This document shows, piece after piece, positions 18,885 through 27,614 of a DNA stretch of 64,000 nucleotides. Position 1 is the stretch's first letter. The number at the start of each line of letters is the position of its first letter. Location of the stretch: positions 5,146,001 to 5,210,000 of the forward strand of contig NZ_JAJFZL010000001.1 in NCBI RefSeq assembly GCF_020733635.1, given 5' to 3'. The notes beneath the pieces are model-generated. The model had not been told where the DNA came from. It saw only the letters and a program-made list of their open reading frames with translations, and did no database searches. This stretch comes from Nocardia spumae. Its GTDB lineage: Bacteria; Actinomycetota; Actinomycetes; Mycobacteriales; Mycobacteriaceae. The position numbers were made by a program, and so were the translations under genes.

Positions 18885-19934
18885 ATGCCGCATTCTCGTT
18901 TCGAATCCATCGGCGCATATCTACCCGAAAAGCGGGTGACAACGGAGGAATTGATCGCCCGGCTCGCAGTGCCGCCCGCCTTCGATCTCGAAAAGATCAC
19001 AGGAGTACGCGAACGCCGCGTCCACGACACCCGGCCGGAGTCCTACGAAGACTCCTTCACCCTGGCATGCAAGGCGCTGGACGACTGTCTGAGCAGTTCA
19101 CAGTATGCGGGCTCGGAGATAGAGGTGGTCATCTCCACCTCCATCACCCGCAGCAAGAACGCCACAAGAATGTATATGGAGCCGTCATTCGCCTCTGCCC
19201 TGGCACAGCGAATAGGGGCAGAGAACGCGATTACTTTCGACCTTTCCAACGCGTGTGCCGGAATGTTGAGCGGAACCTACATTCTCGATCGCATGATTCG
19301 CTCCGGAATGGTGCGTAACGGCATCGTCGTCAGCGGTGAGGCCATTACTCCTATCGCCGATACCGCGGTCCGGGAAATATCCGACAAATACGATCTACAA
19401 TTCGCTTCGCTGACCGTCGGGGACTCCGCGGCGGCCGTGGTCCTCGACCGGTCCGTCGACGAGGCCGACCGGATCGACTACATCGAACTGGTGACCGCCT
19501 CGGAGTTCTCGCACCTGTGCCTGGGCATGCCCAGTGACAAGTCCCCGGGCGTGGCGCTCTACACCGACAACCGCAAGATGCACAACGAGGACCGGTTCGT
19601 GCTGTGGACCGACTCGCAGCGGATGTTCTACGACAAGCGCGGCACCACCTTCGCCGAGGAGAACTTCGACTTCATCATCCACCACCAGTTCGGCGCGGCC
19701 GCGATTCCGTTCATGAACGCCATCGCCGAGCGGGAGTTCGGTGCGCCGATGCCACCGGACCTCAACGTCATCAGCGAATACGGAAATACCTCCAGCACTT
19801 CACATTTCATCGTGTTGCACGACCAGTTGAGCCGTAACGAGATCCCGGCCGGCTCGAAGCTGCTGATGGTGCCCGCCGCTTCCGGCGTCGTCGGCGGCTT
19901 CCTGTCCACCACGATTTCGTCACTGAAGGTCTGA
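18885..19934 (+). CDS. nltA: OleA-like thiolase, NltA-type (catalytic Cys present)
   Basis: Condensing enzyme of the KAS III/OleA group. In the known nocardiolactone pathway NltA and NltB together join two fatty acyl-CoAs head to head to a beta-keto acid. It has 349 residues. The nucleophile is C124 in FDLSNACAGMLSG. The oxyanion His is in IIHHQFGAAA near residue 264, and the Asn in SEYGNTSSTS near residue 303. E99 in MEPSFASALA corresponds to the OleA motif that carries its catalytic base. A perfect AGGAGG precedes the ATG. It is followed 10 bases later by a second, Cys-less thiolase. Assignment to nltA rests on gene order with nltB, nltC and nltD. Confidence 0.88.
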   Translation: MPHSRFESIGAYLPEKRVTTEELIARLAVPPAFDLEKITGVRERRVHDTRPESYEDSFTLACKALDDCLSSSQYAGSEIEVVISTSITRSKNATRMYMEPSFASALAQRIGAENAITFDLSNACAGMLSGTYILDRMIRSGMVRNGIVVSGEAITPIADTAVREISDKYDLQFASLTVGDSAAAVVLDRSVDEADRIDYIELVTASEFSHLCLGMPSDKSPGVALYTDNRKMHNEDRFVLWTDSQRMFYDKRGTTFAEENFDFIIHHQFGAAAIPFMNAIAEREFGAPMPPDLNVISEYGNTSSTSHFIVLHDQLSRNEIPAGSKLLMVPAASGVVGGFLSTTISSLKV

Positions 19935-19944
19935 GGTACTGGTC

Positions 19945-20853
19945 ATGGGCGTTCGCATCACATCCACCGGAATCAGCCGTGCCGAGGGCACTTTCAGCAT
20001 CGTCGAACACAGCGGCCGGGCAGCGCGGCGCAGTCTCGAACGCGCCGGGGTGGCTCCCGATCAGGTCGGGGTGCTCATCAATGCCGGCATCTTCCGCGAC
20101 TCCAACACCGTGGAACCCGCCATCTCCGCGCTGATCCAGAAGGAGGCGGGCATCGGATTGGACTATCGCTTCGGTGATCCGCGCTCGTTCTCCTTCGACC
20201 TGATGAACGGCGCCACCGGCGTCCTCAACGCGGTGCAGGTCGCCCAGTCGATTCTGGAGACCGCGGGCGCGGGACATGTGCTGATCGTCTCCGGCGACAC
20301 GCATCCCTCGCTCACCCGATCGGTGGCCGACGACGAGTTCCCGTACGCGACCGCGGGCGCGGCGCTGCTGCTCGAACACACCACCGAGGCAGTGGGTTTC
20401 GGCCGGGTGCACACCGTCTCGGGAGCCGGCGGGCCGGGCGTCGAGTCATATGTGGACGTCACCACCATGGGTACGGCGGGACGCGGACTGATGACCGTGG
20501 AACGCGAGCCCGGATTCGAAGACCGGCTGCTCGAGCTCGCGGCCGAGGCCGGGCGGCGAGCGCTGGACGACCCGGACGGGATCGATCCCGCCGCCACCGT
20601 CCTCATCGCCTCCACTCCGAGCCCGAAGTTCCCGCAGCTGCTGGCCGATACGCTCGGCATCGGGGCGGTGCGGATCCCCGACCTCACCGACGGCGATCCG
20701 CACACCGCCGCCCTGCCTCTGGCCTATCACCGTGCGGTGGAGCAGGGTTCACTGTCGGGATTCACGACAGTGCTGTTCGTGGCCGCCGGTGCCGGACCGT
20801 CCGCGGCGGCCGCGGTGTACCGGCTGCCCGTCGCTACCGGTGTGGCGGCGTGA
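19945..20853 (+). CDS. nltB: OleA-like thiolase homologue lacking catalytic Cys, NltB-type
   Basis: Thiolase-fold partner of 302 residues. Aligned to its neighbour, the nucleophile position in SFDLMNGATGVLN is Ala (residue 90) instead of Cys. The active-site His and Asn regions are also replaced (IASTPSPKF, GDGDPHTAALPL). VEPAISALIQKEAG keeps a Glu (E57) at the position that in OleA supplies the base to the partner subunit. It is shorter by about 47 residues, mainly at the N-terminus. Together with NltA it should form an obligate heterodimer in which only one chain has the Cys. Its stop overlaps the synthetase start by four bases. Confidence 0.85.
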   Translation: MGVRITSTGISRAEGTFSIVEHSGRAARRSLERAGVAPDQVGVLINAGIFRDSNTVEPAISALIQKEAGIGLDYRFGDPRSFSFDLMNGATGVLNAVQVAQSILETAGAGHVLIVSGDTHPSLTRSVADDEFPYATAGAALLLEHTTEAVGFGRVHTVSGAGGPGVESYVDVTTMGTAGRGLMTVEREPGFEDRLLELAAEAGRRALDDPDGIDPAATVLIASTPSPKFPQLLADTLGIGAVRIPDLTDGDPHTAALPLAYHRAVEQGSLSGFTTVLFVAAGAGPSAAAAVYRLPVATGVAA

Positions 20854-22520
20854 ACGGAACCTACTGGCGCGCGATCGATCGGTTCCGCGCCGTCGTCGCG
20901 GCGCAACCCGACCGCGCGGCGGTCTACTCCGCGGAGCCCGGCGGTGCGGGGATGCCGCAGTATCGCCGGCTCAGCTACGCCGACCTCGACCGGTGGTCGG
21001 ACACCATCGCCGAACGCCTCATCGCCGCCGGGGTGGGCAGCGGCACCCGCACCATCGTGCTGGTCCTGCCCAGCCCCGAGCTGTACGCGATCATGCTGGG
21101 GCTGTTGAAGATCGGCGCGGTGCCGGTCGTCATCGACCCCGGGATGGGGCTGCGCCGGATGCTGCGCTGTCTGCGGGCGGCCGAGGCCCAGGCGTTCATC
21201 GGAATACCGCGGGCGCACGCCGCGCGGGTGGTGTTTCGCCGCTACTTCCGCGGCGTGCGCGTCGCGGTGACGGTCGGGCCACGGTGGTTCTGGGGCGGGG
21301 CACGACTGCGGGCGTGGGGACGCCGGCCCACCGGTGCCCTGCCGGCCAGGACCCCGGCCCCCGATGACGATCTCCTGCTGATCGCGTTCACCACCGGCAG
21401 CACGGGGCCGGCCAAGGCCGTGGAAATGACCCACGGCAATCTCTCGGCCATGGTCGAGCAGGTCCACGCCGCGCGCGACGGGGTGCCGCCGGAAAGCTCG
21501 CTGATCACTCTGCCGCTGGTCGGGATCCTCGACCTGCTGCTCGGCTCGCAGTGTGTGCTGCCGCCGCTGATCCCCAGCAAAGTGGGATCCACCGATCCGG
21601 CGCAGGTGGCCGCCGCGATCGACCGGTTCGGCGTACGTACCCTCTTCGCCTCCCCGGCGGTGCTGATTCCGCTGCTGCGTCACCTCGAACGCAGCGGCGC
21701 CGCGCTGCCGACACTGCGCAGCGTGTATTCCGGCGGAGCGCCGGTCCCGGACTGGTGTATCGCGGGTCTGCGGGCGGTCCTCGACGAGGATGTCCGCATC
21801 TACGCCGGGTACGGCTCCACCGAGGCACTGCCGATGTCGATGATCGAATCGCGGGAGCTGCTGGCGGGCCCGGCAGACCGCGCGCGTACGGGTGCGGGCA
21901 CCTGCATCGGCCGGACCGCCGACCGGGTGCGGGCCCGGATCGTCGCGATCACCGACGATCCGCTGCCCACCTGGGCACACGCGCAGGACCGGGCATCGGA
22001 ACTCGACAGCACCCGCGGCATCGGGGAACTCGTGGTCGCGGGACCGAATGTGAGCACTCGCTACTACTGGCCGCCGGACGCCAACGTGACGGGCAAGATC
22101 ATCGACGGCGAGACGGTCTGGCACCGCACCGGCGATCTGGCCTGGATCGACGACGAGCGGCGAATCTGGTTCTGCGGACGTAAATCTCAGCGCGTGCGCA
22201 CCGCCGACGGACCGCTGTTCACCGTCCAGATCGAGCAGATCTTCAACGCGGTGGAGGGCGTGGCTCGCACGGCACTGGTCGGAGTGGGCGCCGCGGGCGC
22301 CCAGCGGCCCGTGCTGTGTGTGCAAACGCTGCCCGGCGCCGATCGCACCGGGATCGAGGCCGCACTGCGGGCCCGCGGCGCCGAATTCGAACTCACCGCG
22401 AAGATCTCGGAGTTCTTGTTCCATCCGGAGTTCCCGGTGGATATCCGGCACAACGCGAAGATCGGGCGCGAGCAGCTCGCGGTCTGGGCGAGCGGGCAAT
22501 CGATGAGGGGACCGCGATGA
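20850..22520 (+). CDS. nltC: OleC-type beta-lactone synthetase (AMP-forming), NltC-type
   Basis: ANL-superfamily adenylating enzyme of 556 residues that turns a beta-hydroxy acid into a beta-lactone using ATP. The AMP loop FTTGSTGPAKAVEMTHGN is near residue 183. IYAGYGSTEALPMSMIES near residue 318 is the OleC version of the A5 motif, and WHRTGDLAWIDDERRIWFCGR is near residue 425. The C-terminal FPVDIRHNAKIGREQLAVWA contains the family Lys. These last features match OleC rather than ordinary acyl-CoA ligases. It is coupled to NltB by ATGA/GTGA-type overlaps on both sides. The lactone product is inferred. Confidence 0.9.
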   Translation: MNGTYWRAIDRFRAVVAAQPDRAAVYSAEPGGAGMPQYRRLSYADLDRWSDTIAERLIAAGVGSGTRTIVLVLPSPELYAIMLGLLKIGAVPVVIDPGMGLRRMLRCLRAAEAQAFIGIPRAHAARVVFRRYFRGVRVAVTVGPRWFWGGARLRAWGRRPTGALPARTPAPDDDLLLIAFTTGSTGPAKAVEMTHGNLSAMVEQVHAARDGVPPESSLITLPLVGILDLLLGSQCVLPPLIPSKVGSTDPAQVAAAIDRFGVRTLFASPAVLIPLLRHLERSGAALPTLRSVYSGGAPVPDWCIAGLRAVLDEDVRIYAGYGSTEALPMSMIESRELLAGPADRARTGAGTCIGRTADRVRARIVAITDDPLPTWAHAQDRASELDSTRGIGELVVAGPNVSTRYYWPPDANVTGKIIDGETVWHRTGDLAWIDDERRIWFCGRKSQRVRTADGPLFTVQIEQIFNAVEGVARTALVGVGAAGAQRPVLCVQTLPGADRTGIEAALRARGAEFELTAKISEFLFHPEFPVDIRHNAKIGREQLAVWASGQSMRGPR

Positions 22521-22819
22521 CGACGCGAGTAGTCGCGCTGCGGCTCGTTCCGATCGCCGGTTGGCTGTTTCTGCTGGCCGGTCCGGTGATCGCCACCTCC
22601 GGACGCCGGTGGCTGCGCACGCTGTGGTGGATCGACGCGGTACTCAGCGTCGGGGTGCACGCCGCGCAGATTCCCGCCGCACTGCGCGCCGCCGAGCACA
22701 GCGGACGGTCGCGGCTGCACACCGCTGTCATGACCCAGATCTTCGGCCTCACCTGGTGGCGTACCCGCCCTGCGCGAACCTCGTGCGGCACCGATACTTT
22801 CGATCGGAGAACGCGGTGA
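22517..22819 (+). CDS. Small two-helix membrane protein between nltC and nltD
   Basis: Protein of 100 residues overlapping nltC by ATGA and the next gene by GTGA, so it is a true member of the operon. Two hydrophobic segments are clear (LRLVPIAGWLFLLAGPVIA, residues 9-27, and LWWIDAVLSVGVHAAQIPAAL, residues 37-57), and FGLTWWR near residue 77 may be a third short one. The WWxD and HAAQ residues recall small DUF1145-like or Erg28-like membrane proteins, but I cannot place it. It may anchor the lactone enzymes at the membrane or help pass the lipid to the transporter downstream. Function unknown. Confidence 0.8.
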   Translation: MTTRVVALRLVPIAGWLFLLAGPVIATSGRRWLRTLWWIDAVLSVGVHAAQIPAALRAAEHSGRSRLHTAVMTQIFGLTWWRTRPARTSCGTDTFDRRTR

Positions 22820-23856
22820 GAGCATTGGTCACCGGGGCATCCGGATTCCTGGGTGGCGCGTTGGCGCGCCGTCTGGCCGCCGAGGGCGGACACGAGGTCA
22901 CGGTGCTCGCGCGCCGCACCAGCAACCTGGGCGAACTGCGCGATCTCGACGGCGTGCACGTCGTCTACGGCGATCTCACCGACGAGGCTTCACTGCGGCG
23001 CGCCTGCACCGGTGTCGACGTGGTGTTCCACAGCGCCGCCCGGGTCGACGAGCGCGGCACCCGCGAACAGTTCCACAACGAGAATGTGCGCGGCACCGAA
23101 TATCTGCTCCGCGCCGCGCGGACGGCCGGTGCCACCCGCTTCGTCTTCATCTCCAGCCCCAGCGCGTTGATGGACCGTGACGGCGGCGACCAGATCGATA
23201 TCGACGAATCGGTGCCGTATCCGAGCCGGTACCTGAATCCGTACGCCGAAACCAAGGCCGCCGCCGAACGTGCCGTATTGGCCGCCGACACTGCCGATTT
23301 CACCACCTGTGCCCTGCGCCCGCGCGCGATCTGGGGCGCCGGTGACCGATCCGGCCCGATCGTGCGTCTGCTCGGGCGCACGGCACAGGGACGGCTGCCC
23401 GATCTGTCCTTCGGTCGATCGGTTCAGGCATCGCTGTGCCATGTGGAAAATATCGTGCACGCCTGTCTGGGGGCCGCCGCCTCCGACCGGGTGGGTGGCC
23501 GGGCCTATTTCGTCGCCGACGCCGAGAAGACCGATGTGTGGGCATTTCTGGCGGAGGTCGCCGCCCGGCTCGGTTACCCGCCACCCAGCCGCCGGCCCGA
23601 TCCCCGGGTGCTCGCCGCCGCGGTGGCGGTGATCGAAACCCTGTGGCGCATACCGGCGGTCGCCCGGCGCTGGTCACCTCCGCTGTCGCGCTACGTCGTG
23701 GCGTTGATGACCCGAACCGCCACCTACGACACCGGCGCGGCCGCACGCGATTTCGGATACGCGCCGATCGTCGACCGCGACCGCGGGCTCGAGCAGTTCC
23801 TGTCCTGGCTCGGATCCCAAGGCGGTATCGAGCACCTCACCCGCGAGTTGCGGTAA
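22816..23856 (+). CDS. nltD: OleD-type NAD(P)-dependent reductase, NltD-type
   Basis: Extended SDR of the 3-beta-HSD/OleD group, reducing the beta-keto acid to the beta-hydroxy acid before lactone formation. The start is GTG 22816, overlapping the membrane-protein stop. This places VTGASGFLGGALARRLA (Rossmann loop) at residues 5-21. DVVFHSAARVDERG follows near 68, SSPSAL holds the catalytic Ser, and NPYAETKAAAER the Tyr/Lys near residue 143. RPRAIWG and LCHVENIVHA are family motifs. At 346 residues its length suits OleD. The open frame extends upstream but only antisense to family logic. Confidence 0.88.
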   Translation: MRALVTGASGFLGGALARRLAAEGGHEVTVLARRTSNLGELRDLDGVHVVYGDLTDEASLRRACTGVDVVFHSAARVDERGTREQFHNENVRGTEYLLRAARTAGATRFVFISSPSALMDRDGGDQIDIDESVPYPSRYLNPYAETKAAAERAVLAADTADFTTCALRPRAIWGAGDRSGPIVRLLGRTAQGRLPDLSFGRSVQASLCHVENIVHACLGAAASDRVGGRAYFVADAEKTDVWAFLAEVAARLGYPPPSRRPDPRVLAAAVAVIETLWRIPAVARRWSPPLSRYVVALMTRTATYDTGAAARDFGYAPIVDRDRGLEQFLSWLGSQGGIEHLTRELR

Positions 23857-23872
23857 CGCACAGTAGGAGCCG

Positions 23873-25072
23873 ATGATCATGAGCACCGTCTTCCGGCGGC
23901 GAATCTCGCCCACCGAGCGCATGTACTTTCCCATGCGCGATATGGCGCCGCCGTTCCTGATGCAATTGGCCATTTCCGGAACGGGCGGCCTCGACGCGGA
24001 GCGAGTGCGGCGTGCTGTCGCCACCGCCGCGGCGGTCTGCCCCGGCGCCCGGCTGCGCCGTGAAGGTCGCTACTGGGTCGATACCGGAGTCCCGCCCGCG
24101 GTACGTGAAATAAGCGGTCACACACTGGATCTCGAACATCTGGAAGCGGACTCCGTGCTGGGTTCCGCGATCGGCCCGACACCGGGGACCACCTGCGAGG
24201 TACTTCTGCTGACCGGAGATCCGGTCACGATGATCTTCCGGGTGTTCCACGGGGTCATGGACGGTATGGGCATGGTGCTGTGGGCACGCACCGTGCTGGC
24301 CGCCTTGCGCGGCGAACGGCCCGAACCGCTCGGCGATCCGATCGCCGACCGGGAATTGGTGCGCCGTATCGGCACCTCCGGTCGTCCCGCCGCGATGGTC
24401 CCCCGGTACCGCGCGGCGGTCGGCCACGGGCGCCAGGATCCGGGGGCGGCGCGACATCTGTTGCGGCGCCGCACCATCGCCGCCGCCGGACCCGGCGCCG
24501 TCGCGCGGGTGTCGGCGCTGCTGGCCGACCACGCGGGCGCCACCGCCCGCATCATGGTGCCGGTCGACCTGCGCCGCCACGATCCGCGGCTGCGATCGAC
24601 GGCGAATCTGGCGCTGCCGCTGTTCCTCGATATTCGCCCGGGCGAGCAGTGGCCTCAGGTCCGGGATCGGATGCGTGCCGGCCTGCGTGACCGCACCGAA
24701 CTCGATCAGATGGCGTCGAGTGCGATCGGCAACGCGCCGCATGCGGTCGGTCGCGCCATCCTGCGCGCCACCAATGCCCTCGGAGCCCGCTTCGGCCGCA
24801 ACCTGGCCTCGGCGACGGTATCGCATATGGGCCGTTTCGATCTCGACGAGCTCGCCGTCCCCGGCTGGACTCCCACCACGGTGTTCGTACTGCCGCAACA
24901 CAGCGTGGCGATGCCGCTGCTGTTCGCGATGGTGGAATGCGGTGGGCGCACCGAACTGTCGGTATCGGCCCGCAACGGCCGTGGCATCGAACAGCGGCTC
25001 GAAGCCCTGCTCGATCGCATCGCCGAGACCCTGGAAGCCGAACTGCCACAAACCGATTCGGCCCCGGCATGA
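23873..25072 (+). CDS. HxxxDG (condensation/PapA-like) acyltransferase
   Basis: Protein of 399 residues with the fold marks of CoA-dependent acyltransferases: FHGVMDGMGM near residue 125 gives the catalytic HxxxDG (the preceding His of HHxxxDG is Phe), and a second half has MVPVDLRRHDPRLRSTANLALPLFLD and the VSHMGRFDLDEL loop. This is the superfamily of NRPS condensation domains, PapA and WS/DGAT. It starts 16 bases after nltD and ends coupled to the MMPL gene. In mycobacteria, PapA-type enzymes paired with MmpL transporters finish and export complex lipids. A similar acylation of a nocardiolactone-related lipid is my inference. Confidence 0.8.
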   Translation: MIMSTVFRRRISPTERMYFPMRDMAPPFLMQLAISGTGGLDAERVRRAVATAAAVCPGARLRREGRYWVDTGVPPAVREISGHTLDLEHLEADSVLGSAIGPTPGTTCEVLLLTGDPVTMIFRVFHGVMDGMGMVLWARTVLAALRGERPEPLGDPIADRELVRRIGTSGRPAAMVPRYRAAVGHGRQDPGAARHLLRRRTIAAAGPGAVARVSALLADHAGATARIMVPVDLRRHDPRLRSTANLALPLFLDIRPGEQWPQVRDRMRAGLRDRTELDQMASSAIGNAPHAVGRAILRATNALGARFGRNLASATVSHMGRFDLDELAVPGWTPTTVFVLPQHSVAMPLLFAMVECGGRTELSVSARNGRGIEQRLEALLDRIAETLEAELPQTDSAPA

Positions 25073-27216
25073 GCCGCTGGGCACGATTGGTGACCACCCG
25101 CCCGACACTGATCCTCGGCGCCGCGATCGGTATCGCGGTGCTGTTCGGACTGTTCGGCGCCGATGTGCAGCAGCGGGTGAGCGCGGCCGGATTCGCCGAT
25201 CCCGGTAGTGAATCCGCCCTGGTCGATCAGGTGGTCACCGCGCATCTGGGCCGACAGAATCCCGACGTGATCGCGATCTACACCGCACCCGCCGGACAGG
25301 ATCTCGGCGCGCTCACCCCGCGGGTGCGCGACGCCGTCGGCCGCATCGATCCTGCCCTGCTGGCCCAGCCGGTGCAGACCTATTGGAACAACAGCCCGCC
25401 GCGGCAGGCCGTGCTGCGGTCGGCGGACGGACGACAGGGGCTGGCCGTCGTGTTCGCGTCCGGCGACGACGATCAGCGCATCGCGGCTTATCACGACATC
25501 GCGGCGGCGCTGCGGATTCCCGGCGTCGCGGTCCGATTCACCGGCTACAGCGCCCTGGCCGACGAGATCGACACCCAGTCCCGGCACGATCTCGTACTCG
25601 CCGAATCCCTGTCGCTGCCGATCACCCTCGCGATCCTGGTCCTGGTCTTCGGCGGCGTGGTCGCGGCGGGACTGCCGCTGCTGGTCGGCATTCTCGCGGT
25701 CGTGGGGTCGCTCGGTGCGGTCGGCCTGATCGCACACCTCACCGAGGTGAGTGTGTTCGCCGTGAACGTGGCCTCGCTGCTGGGGCTCGGACTGGCCATC
25801 GACTACGGACTGTTCGTGGTGACCCGATTCCGCGAGGAGCTCGCCGCGGGGGCTCCCCCGCCCGCCGCGGTCGCCCGCACGCTGGCCACCGCCGGTCGCA
25901 CCGTCGGATTCTCGGCCCTGCTGCTGGCCTGCGCCTTCGCCGGGACGTTCGTCTTCCCGCAAGCCGTGTTGCGCTCGCTGGGCTTCGGTGCCATCGCGGC
26001 GGTCCTGCTGGCGGCCGGGCTGTCGCTGACCGTACTGCCCGCGTCCTTGGCGCTGCTCGGACCGCGAATCGGCGCCTGGAGCTGGCGGCGCGACGCCTTC
26101 GACCGCGGCCGGCGCCGGGCCGAGCGCTGGTGGGGCCGGGTGGTCGACGTGGTCGTACGCCGCCCGGGGATCGTCGCGGTCACGGTCGGCGGGTTACTGC
26201 TGGCGCTGGCGACCCCGGTACTCGGCGTACGGCTGGGCGATGTGGACCACACGGCGCTGCCCGCGGGTAATTCGGTGCGCGCGGGGGTGGACGAACTCGC
26301 CGCGCGGTTCCCCGCCGCGGGCAGCGGCGCCACGGTACTGCTGCGCGGTGAGGGCGCACCGCCCGATTCCGCCCCGACCGCGGCCGCGATCCGGGGGATC
26401 GGCGCGGTCCCCGGTGTCCACGACGTCCAGCGATTGGCCACGGTCGACGACGCGGTGGTCGTGCACGTCGCGCTCGACGATCCCGACCGCTCCCCCGCGG
26501 CGATCGAAACCGTCTCTCGTATCCGGGATCTCGCCGTTCCGGCCGATATCGATATGCGGGTGGGCGGAGATACGGCGGCCACCGTCGACAGCGTCGCGGC
26601 CATCACCTCCCGGATGCCGGCGATGATCGCGGTCATGGTGCTCGCGACGCTGGTCCTGCTGGGTGCGGCGTTCCGATCGGCGGTGCTGCCGCTGAAGGCG
26701 GTGCTGCTCGCATCGCTCAGCCTGGCCGCGACCTTCGGCATCCTGACCTGGATCTTCTGCCGAGGCCACCTCGCGGAGGCGCTGCGGGTGAGTGTCGGCC
26801 CGCTGTCGGCGGGCATGATGGTGCTGATCATCGCCGTCGTCTTCGGGTTGTCGACCGACTACGAGGTGTTTCTGCTGTCCCGCATGGTGGAGGCCCGAAA
26901 CTCCGGGGCCGGCACCGTCGCGGCCGTTCGCACCGGCACCGTCCGGACCGCTCGCGTGATCACCGCCGCCGCAACGCTTCTGGTGATCATTACCGGCGCC
27001 TTCACACTGTCGCCGCTCACTCCGATGCGCTTTCTCGGCCTGGGCATGATCCTGGCACTGATCATCGACGCCACGCTGGTCCGGATGCTGCTGGTCCCGG
27101 CGCTGGTGACGCTCATGGGACCGGCGAACTGGTGGCCCATGCGGCCCGGCCGCCGCGATGGTTACCCGGTAGGTAATGGACTGCGCACATCGGCACGGGC
27201 AAGCTCGACCTCATGA
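25069..27216 (+). CDS. MMPL/RND-family lipid transporter
   Basis: Inner-membrane RND transporter of 716 residues starting at ATG 25069 (overlap ATGA with the acyltransferase). TM1 spans PTLILGAAIGIAVLFGLFG. A first periplasmic loop of about 150 residues is followed by five helices with the GLGLAIDYGLFVVTRFREELA motif near residue 240. A second half repeats the layout, with FGLSTDYEVFLLSRMVEARNSGAGTVAAV near residue 595. The paired Asp-Tyr motifs in TM4 and TM10 are the proton-relay sites of MmpL proteins. It lacks the long C-terminal tail of mycolate transporters. Likely exports the product of this operon. Confidence 0.92.
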   Translation: MSRWARLVTTRPTLILGAAIGIAVLFGLFGADVQQRVSAAGFADPGSESALVDQVVTAHLGRQNPDVIAIYTAPAGQDLGALTPRVRDAVGRIDPALLAQPVQTYWNNSPPRQAVLRSADGRQGLAVVFASGDDDQRIAAYHDIAAALRIPGVAVRFTGYSALADEIDTQSRHDLVLAESLSLPITLAILVLVFGGVVAAGLPLLVGILAVVGSLGAVGLIAHLTEVSVFAVNVASLLGLGLAIDYGLFVVTRFREELAAGAPPPAAVARTLATAGRTVGFSALLLACAFAGTFVFPQAVLRSLGFGAIAAVLLAAGLSLTVLPASLALLGPRIGAWSWRRDAFDRGRRRAERWWGRVVDVVVRRPGIVAVTVGGLLLALATPVLGVRLGDVDHTALPAGNSVRAGVDELAARFPAAGSGATVLLRGEGAPPDSAPTAAAIRGIGAVPGVHDVQRLATVDDAVVVHVALDDPDRSPAAIETVSRIRDLAVPADIDMRVGGDTAATVDSVAAITSRMPAMIAVMVLATLVLLGAAFRSAVLPLKAVLLASLSLAATFGILTWIFCRGHLAEALRVSVGPLSAGMMVLIIAVVFGLSTDYEVFLLSRMVEARNSGAGTVAAVRTGTVRTARVITAAATLLVIITGAFTLSPLTPMRFLGLGMILALIIDATLVRMLLVPALVTLMGPANWWPMRPGRRDGYPVGNGLRTSARASSTS

Positions 27217-27614
27217 TCGATACCGAGGGAACCCAGCTGTTCCACAGCACGATGCCGTTCACCGAGAAACTCGGGGTCGAGGTGCTCGAGCACGGGCCGA
27301 AACTCGTGCGCAGCCGCCTCGCCTGGGACGAGAGCCTGTGCACGCTGGGCGGCGCCCTGCACGGCGGGGTGCTGATGTCGCTGGCCGACGCCACCGGCGC
27401 GGTCTGCGCCTACCTGAATCTGCCGGAAGGCAAACAGGGCACCACGACCGTGGAATCGAAGACGAACTTCCTGCGGGCCGTGCGGTCCGGCCATGCGGTG
27501 GCGACCTCGACTCCGTTGCACGCCGGCCGCAGCTTCATCGTCGTGGAGACCGAAATCCACGACGACGCCGGGAAGCTCGTCGGCAAGGTCACCCAGACGC
27601 AGGCGGTGCTGTGA
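27213..27614 (+). CDS. PaaI-type hotdog thioesterase
   Basis: Hotdog-fold acyl-CoA thioesterase of 133 residues. GGALHGGVLMSLADATGAVCA (about residues 46-66) is the HGG motif with the conserved Asp in the long helix. TVESKTNFLRAVRSGHAVATSTPLHAGRS follows, as in PaaI/YbgC relatives. It overlaps the MMPL stop by four bases and is the last gene of the operon. In olefin and lactone pathways a thioesterase could clear mis-primed acyl-CoA or release the beta-keto acid from CoA; here that is inference from position. Confidence 0.88.
   Translation: MIDTEGTQLFHSTMPFTEKLGVEVLEHGPKLVRSRLAWDESLCTLGGALHGGVLMSLADATGAVCAYLNLPEGKQGTTTVESKTNFLRAVRSGHAVATSTPLHAGRSFIVVETEIHDDAGKLVGKVTQTQAVL

Follow-up and report, generated by a model that had tools for sequence, protein, structure and literature searches.

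The window analysed here, a 64,000-nucleotide stretch of the 7.07 Mb genome of Nocardia spumae, contains eight successive genes: a pair of KASIII genes (KASIII-A and KASIII-B) and the genes for an OleC-like enzyme, a small membrane protein (M4), an OleD-like reductase, a putative acyltransferase with an HxxxDG motif (AT6), an MMPL transporter (MMPL7) and a hotdog thioesterase (TE8). Our analysis makes it reasonably likely that the first seven form a nocardiolactone (nlt) operon, derived from a lipstatin-type (lst) operon by loss of the A and carrier domains of a nonribosomal peptide synthetase (NRPS) and of a formyltransferase. The seven-gene unit probably makes and exports a beta-lactone lipid, and TE8 would stand outside it. 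A known natural-product locus is given a new anatomy that has good support; whatever follows the closure of the lactone is inferred. A first-pass annotation of this DNA had named an operon of the oleACD/nlt type, which is borne out, and had taken M4, AT6, MMPL7 and TE8 as four additional members of the pathway; the first three keep that place, and the thioesterase does not. Unexplained genes of a widespread Nocardia locus thereby gain an origin and a testable job each, and nocardiolactone is linked to lipstatin, the parent of an obesity drug, through a traceable loss of NRPS parts.

Origin of AT6 and M4

AT6 (399 aa) is the N-terminal domain of an NRPS of the lipstatin type, left as an orphan, a point overlooked in the first pass, because in relatives the same operon slot holds this domain fused to A-T domains and because the stand-alone proteins nest among fused ones. 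Of 401 genomes of the family searched with AT6, 54 matched. Among these, 19 lie outside Nocardia, 13 with frames of at least 1005 aa, two with pieces at contig ends and four through distant matches only (28-33%, frames of 564-658 aa). In Rhodococcus-type relatives, the slot is occupied by an AT-A-T NRPS roughly 1000 aa long, next to which a formyltransferase is encoded. The 996 aa frame of Rhodococcus qingshengii (L021) reads AT6 domain, AMP-binding, AMP-binding_C and PP-binding, and a 1010 aa frame (L205) has domains identical in kind. A fusion of MMPL to AT6 in the long frames was also considered and ruled out; the extra portion consists of A-T domains. The AT tree comprised 74 rows, namely the window, 25 of the 100 Nocardia loci with this operon (type I, see below) and 48 fused rows, of which four came from loci and 44 from the 120 proteins listed. 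All 26 stand-alone Nocardia rows formed one clade (support 100/100) among the fused rows, and its sister group was made of Nocardia NRPSs (99/82). This sister group includes L207, where the NRPS and formyltransferase genes form a pair with a 4-base overlap (L207 180-3886); ole genes were not found within about 10 kb read around it.

AT6 carries the HxxxDG motif common to condensation, PapA and WS/DGAT acyltransferases. H126 and D130 of the motif are invariant in 100/100 stand-alone and 48/48 fused proteins, and G131 is present in all 100 stand-alone proteins versus 14 of the 48 fused ones. Together with a ratio of nonsynonymous to synonymous substitution (dN/dS) of 0.15-0.24, this speaks for AT6 as a working enzyme, a condensation-like domain that would have outlived its own module with the active site intact. 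The same residues and the same constraint make it unlikely that AT6 persists as a relic or scaffold without catalytic activity, retained for the assembly of a complex, with plain nocardiolactone as the end product, even though AT6 has lost its own A-T partner and the title of a cited reference describes the known Nocardia nocardiolactone as a dialkyl beta-lactone. The acyltransferase activity is predicted from the motif, the position in the NRPS, the database names of relatives ('peptide synthetase' for most of those named, 'Condensation domain-containing' for 4 of the 120 listed) and one weak WS_DGAT_cat match (1.3e-4) among 47 relatives. The window's AT6 and M4 had no match in Pfam or NCBIfam, and a PDB profile search with AT6 found nothing.

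M4, whose origin the first pass had likewise missed, is an OleC domain that forms a separate gene in Nocardia and Rhodococcus, because its profile or reading frame is found at the C-terminus of OleC in Streptomyces. The annotated OleC proteins of three Streptomyces plasmids (L225, L226, L227) measure 652-670 aa, and their last 80-odd residues match the M4 profile with E-values of 6.5e-33 to 3.5e-31. At L212 and L213, the end of OleC and M4 lie in one open frame; as both loci contribute rows to the profile, the E-value for L212 is given by construction, and it is the reading frame that supports the fusion there. The in-frame fusion was seen in 5/5 readable Streptomyces loci. The hydrophobic stretches of M4 suggest that it might anchor OleC at the membrane. 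Membership of M4 in a known family was considered and dropped, its 17 relatives giving scattered weak matches (best 0.0049).

L021 and the Rhodococcus plasmid NZ_CP023721.1 carry the KASIII pair, OleC, M4, OleD, an AT-A-T NRPS, a formyltransferase and MMPL; the plasmid is annotated in the order KASIII, hypothetical, CoA ligase, hypothetical, epimerase, NRPS, formyltransferase, MMPL. This operon shares with that of Nocardia the gene order, M4 as its own gene, MMPL in last place and five 4-base overlaps, and differs from it by its full AT-A-T NRPS and formyltransferase. We predict that Rhodococcus plasmids of this kind might yield formylated lipstatin-like lactones. About 2 kb beyond the plasmid operon (L224 15967-16810) lies a predicted chloramphenicol exporter gene. 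The formyltransferase stands beside the NRPS in L021, L203, L205 and L206 and between OleD and NRPS in L204 and L024; PF00551 was found in two of these six loci, and L022 is cut before the corresponding position. In the lst operons of Streptomyces, the KASIII pair, OleC and OleD follow in the same order and the AT6 homologue is the first NRPS domain; the Nocardia operon differs in having no A-T domains or formyltransferase, M4 as its own gene and an added MmpL3-like transporter. This comparison covers Streptomyces operons other than the lst genes of S. toxytricini themselves. Three Streptomyces plasmids read KASIII, hypothetical, CoA ligase, epimerase, NRPS, formyltransferase, and the stretch displayed has no MMPL; one of the three has a short epimerase annotation followed by a hypothetical protein. 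Plasmid records were viewed in context for 3 of 23 from Streptomyces and 1 of 2 from Rhodococcus.

The operon across the genus Nocardia

The OleC search (E <= 1e-100) matched 112 of 150 Nocardia genomes, that of the host included, and the 138 loci compared comprise every match except the window's own. A formyltransferase was found in none of them. A-domain matches beyond the OleC hit occurred in 7/138, none after AT6: five are N-terminal pieces of OleC, one lies on the other strand, and one, at a type III locus, is found about 8 kb further downstream. In OleC trees, types I and II group with the NRPS-type Mycobacteriales, apart from type III and Streptomyces, with a support of 86/96 for the Nocardia branch. 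The simplest history would be a single loss of the A-T domains and the formyltransferase in the line leading to the Nocardia operon.

Type I, the operon of the window with AT6 close to OleC, was found at 100 loci; two more (L092, L140) have the appearance of type I, but contig ends truncate them and this count excludes them. Within the 100, MMPL was present in 93 (including a 49-residue fragment in L111 and a gene cut by the contig end in L042), M4 in 85 and an adjoining TE8 in 12; the KASIII pair is missing in four because the loci begin at a contig end. The comparison of nltC neighbourhoods, which the first-pass annotation had suggested, therefore divides the extra genes into three conserved operon members and one bystander. 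With start codons chosen by a script, KASIII-A and KASIII-B lay within 20 bases of each other in 95/96 loci, and 4-base overlaps joined KASIII-B to OleC in 82/96, OleC to M4 in 66/85, M4 to OleD in 63/85 and AT6 to MMPL in 67/93. As such short junctions recur across 100 other Nocardia loci, the tight coupling of the genes exceeds chance. Where M4 is lacking (n=15), OleC overlaps OleD by 4 bases. One genome (G029) carries two type I operons (L070, L077), whose AT6 proteins sit in separate parts of the tree. The window's OleC is 82-84% identical to that of N. africana, N. elegans, N. aobensis, N. nova, N. mikamii and N. kruczakiae. At several Nocardia loci (L013-L018, L023, L025-L028), the OleC match spans 1755-2217 bases versus 1668, as if OleC held an insertion.

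The 21 type II loci (L062, L124, L134 and 18 others) hold OleC and OleD, with M4 matched in nine and a KASIII pair on the opposite strand in 21/21 (52-56% and 40-46% identity); AT6 and MMPL7 matched in none. One of them (L062) has a LuxR-type regulator beyond the divergent KASIII pair, and another (L124) an alpha/beta hydrolase after OleD that is perhaps OleB-like. The 15 type III loci (L158-L172; 44-51% identity) represent a more distant ole cluster, five of them with a distant MMPL (38-39%). In L160 and L169, the open reading frame after OleD resembles a cytochrome P450 by eye.

TE8 follows another distribution. Orthologues of at least 78% identity occur in 108/150 Nocardia genomes, 22 of which have no OleC match at the above threshold, and TE8 was rejected as a pathway member. 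That it belongs to an eight-gene pathway, in which it would edit or release acyl chains for the lactone, is very improbable: although TE8 overlaps MMPL by 4 bases in 8 of the 12 adjoining loci, is under strong constraint (dN/dS 0.03-0.11) and shows a weak positive co-occurrence with type I (77 genomes with both, 23 with the operon alone, 31 with TE8 alone and 19 with neither; odds ratio 2.05, p 0.08), no orthologue passes this cut-off in 23 of the 100 type I genomes, 31 genomes have TE8 without type I, and TE8 survives at two sites that have lost the operon. In these two genomes (G086, G140; no OleC match), galactokinase and TE8 lie close together, with a dehydrogenase after TE8. Between galactokinase and TE8, one site (L222, 2300-2642) holds a 44 base pair (bp) match to MMPL7 (86%, E 2e-10) and the other (L223, 1825-2031) a weaker 44 bp match (75%, E 0.002); both also have shorter pieces near the MMPL7 end, ahead of TE8. 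L222 reads as an operon deletion that spared TE8, and L223, whose scraps are weak alone, fits such a deletion. The last 52 bases of the MMPL7 gene (window 27161-27212) also precede TE8 at sites without the operon, and clades differ in their MMPL7 tail; this tail may be an old TE8 leader.

Least probable of all is that an unlinked NRPS-formyltransferase pair completes a lipstatin-like ester, since, although Nocardia L207 has such a pair with its AT domain in the sister group of the stand-alone clade, a long-frame AT6 homologue occurs in only 7/150 genomes, the window's genome has a single AT6 match and an L207-type pair brings its own AT domain.

Proposed pathway and its assessment

An nlt cluster of Nocardia consists of two KASIII genes, OleC and OleD, clustered and without OleB. 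The window has this set, and no alpha/beta hydrolase gene is among its eight. Most probably this is the locus for nocardiolactone, and a reduced operon of the lipstatin type describes it best. One study lists 36 nocardiolactone clusters, six of which were initially called lipstatin-type (mSystems, PMC7413640), and another describes in N. brasiliensis an oleACD cluster without oleB that makes a beta-lactone (mBio, PMC7064751). The single OleC match (E <= 1e-100) of a genome taken as N. brasiliensis (G031) is type I, and one type I AT6 has a database match named N. brasiliensis. Our literature search, outside which the original nlt and lipstatin operon papers fall, turned up no work dealing with AT6, M4 or MMPL as parts of this operon.

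The KASIII pair has the make-up of the lipstatin-type heterodimer, in which one subunit carries Cys-His-Asn and its partner lacks the Cys and has an essential Glu. In an alignment of 113 rows, C124, H267 and N301 of KASIII-A are invariant; in KASIII-B, the position of the catalytic Cys is Ala in 98 and Gly in 15 rows (with a Cys one position later in 14), and E57 is invariant. The lost Cys of the second KASIII had escaped the first-pass annotation. The residues reported for LstA are C128, H271 and N305, and that for LstB is E60 (PMC12141560). By its position, E57 would be the counterpart of LstB E60, LstB itself being outside the alignment. OleC scored 588 bits against PRK09274 of NCBIfam (cut-off 478) and is OleC-like judging from profile and context.

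MmpL3 is the trehalose monomycolate exporter. MMPL7 (715 aa) scored 398-409 bits against MmpL3 chains and 79-89 against MmpL4/5, the similarity running along residues 3-702 with both Asp-Tyr stretches; its 473 bits lie below the cut-off of the MmpL3 equivalog (1400, NCBIfam). The host genome has 11 MMPL matches including MMPL7, the best other being 39-40% identical (39% for the best same-genome paralogue in the MmpL3 comparison). Operon MMPLs elsewhere reach 58% (L021), 56% over 306 residues (L205) and 46% over 162 residues (L203); they fall on one side of the MMPL tree with weak support (62/82), and the host paralogues on long branches. OleA and OleD chemistry leads to 2-alkyl-3-hydroxy acids, which share the head pattern of mycolic acids, and an MmpL3-like carrier for the operon lipid is therefore plausible, the cargo being a putative one.

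These elements suggest the following route. The heterodimer, with the Cys of subunit A and the Glu of subunit B, would condense two acyl-CoAs; OleD would reduce the resulting 2-alkyl-3-keto acid, and OleC, which the detached domain M4 would keep at the membrane, would close the beta-lactone. AT6 might then acylate a hydroxyl group, either on the lactone or on the open precursor, with an acyl-CoA or acyl-ACP (acyl carrier protein) as donor instead of the lost carrier domain, and the MmpL3-like transporter would move the lipid out through the inner membrane. A bolder version, which we hold as speculative, is that nocardiolactone is not the end product: AT6, having turned into a free-standing O-acyltransferase, would acylate the beta-lactone or transfer the acyl group of the strained lactone to an alcohol of the envelope, for instance trehalose, and the transporter would deliver a mycolate-like lipid to the outer envelope. 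If so, this would be a route to 2-alkyl-3-hydroxyacyl lipids independent of Pks13.

Several points weigh against a seven-gene nlt operon of lipstatin-type descent. M4 is absent from 15/100 type I loci, and MMPL was unmatched in 7/100 despite 8.5-8.7 kb read beyond AT6; therefore neither is indispensable. The nlt assignment leans on the assignment of one genome and on database names, and not on a published nlt gene map. OleC scored 500 and 378 bits against the olefin beta-lactone synthetase models (cut-offs 900 and 850), and OleD 223 bits against NF042422 oxyalk_red_OleD (cut-off 580). As for the history, the order among NRPS-type groups differs between the two OleC trees and is unsettled, and L204 showed no MMPL match in roughly 3 kb read beyond its NRPS.

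Layout of the locus

Table 1. Genes and motif of the locus (positions in the window)
Feature	Position	Strand	Basis
KASIII subunit A (LstA/OleA-like, presumed NltA)	18885..19934	+	PF08545, PF08541; PDB matches include OleA chains of X. campestris
KASIII-like subunit B without the catalytic Cys (LstB-like, presumed NltB)	19945..20853	+	alignment, 113 rows
OleC-like AMP-binding enzyme, probable beta-lactone synthetase (presumed NltC)	20850..22520	+	PF00501, PRK09274
M4, small membrane protein, detached C-terminal OleC domain	22517..22819	+	M4 profile, reading frame with OleC
OleD-like 2-alkyl-3-oxoalkanoate reductase (presumed NltD)	22816..23856	+	PF01073 (3-beta-HSD/SDR)
AT6, stand-alone HxxxDG acyltransferase (predicted), orphaned N-terminal domain of lipstatin-type NRPS	23873..25072	+	fusions in relatives, tree
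HGVMDG motif of AT6, residues 126-131	24248..24265	+	alignment
MMPL7, MmpL3-like transporter	25069..27216	+	PF03176, MmpL3 chain matches
TE8, hotdog thioesterase, neighbour outside the unit	27213..27614	+	PF03061 (4HBT)

A promoter and terminator scan of the locus gave chance level only. Between the window and five relatives (NG86), dN/dS was 0.03-0.30 for seven genes and 0.26-0.56 for M4. All eight open reading frames lie on the + strand and have no internal stops. Their junctions are +10, -4, -4, -4, +16, -4 and -4, so that the coordinates confirm the first-pass description of eight same-strand genes with gaps of at most 16 bases and five 4-base overlaps. The database entry of AT6 (P0001) has 397 aa, two codons fewer than the frame used here, which would make the OleD/AT6 gap 22 bases and not 16.

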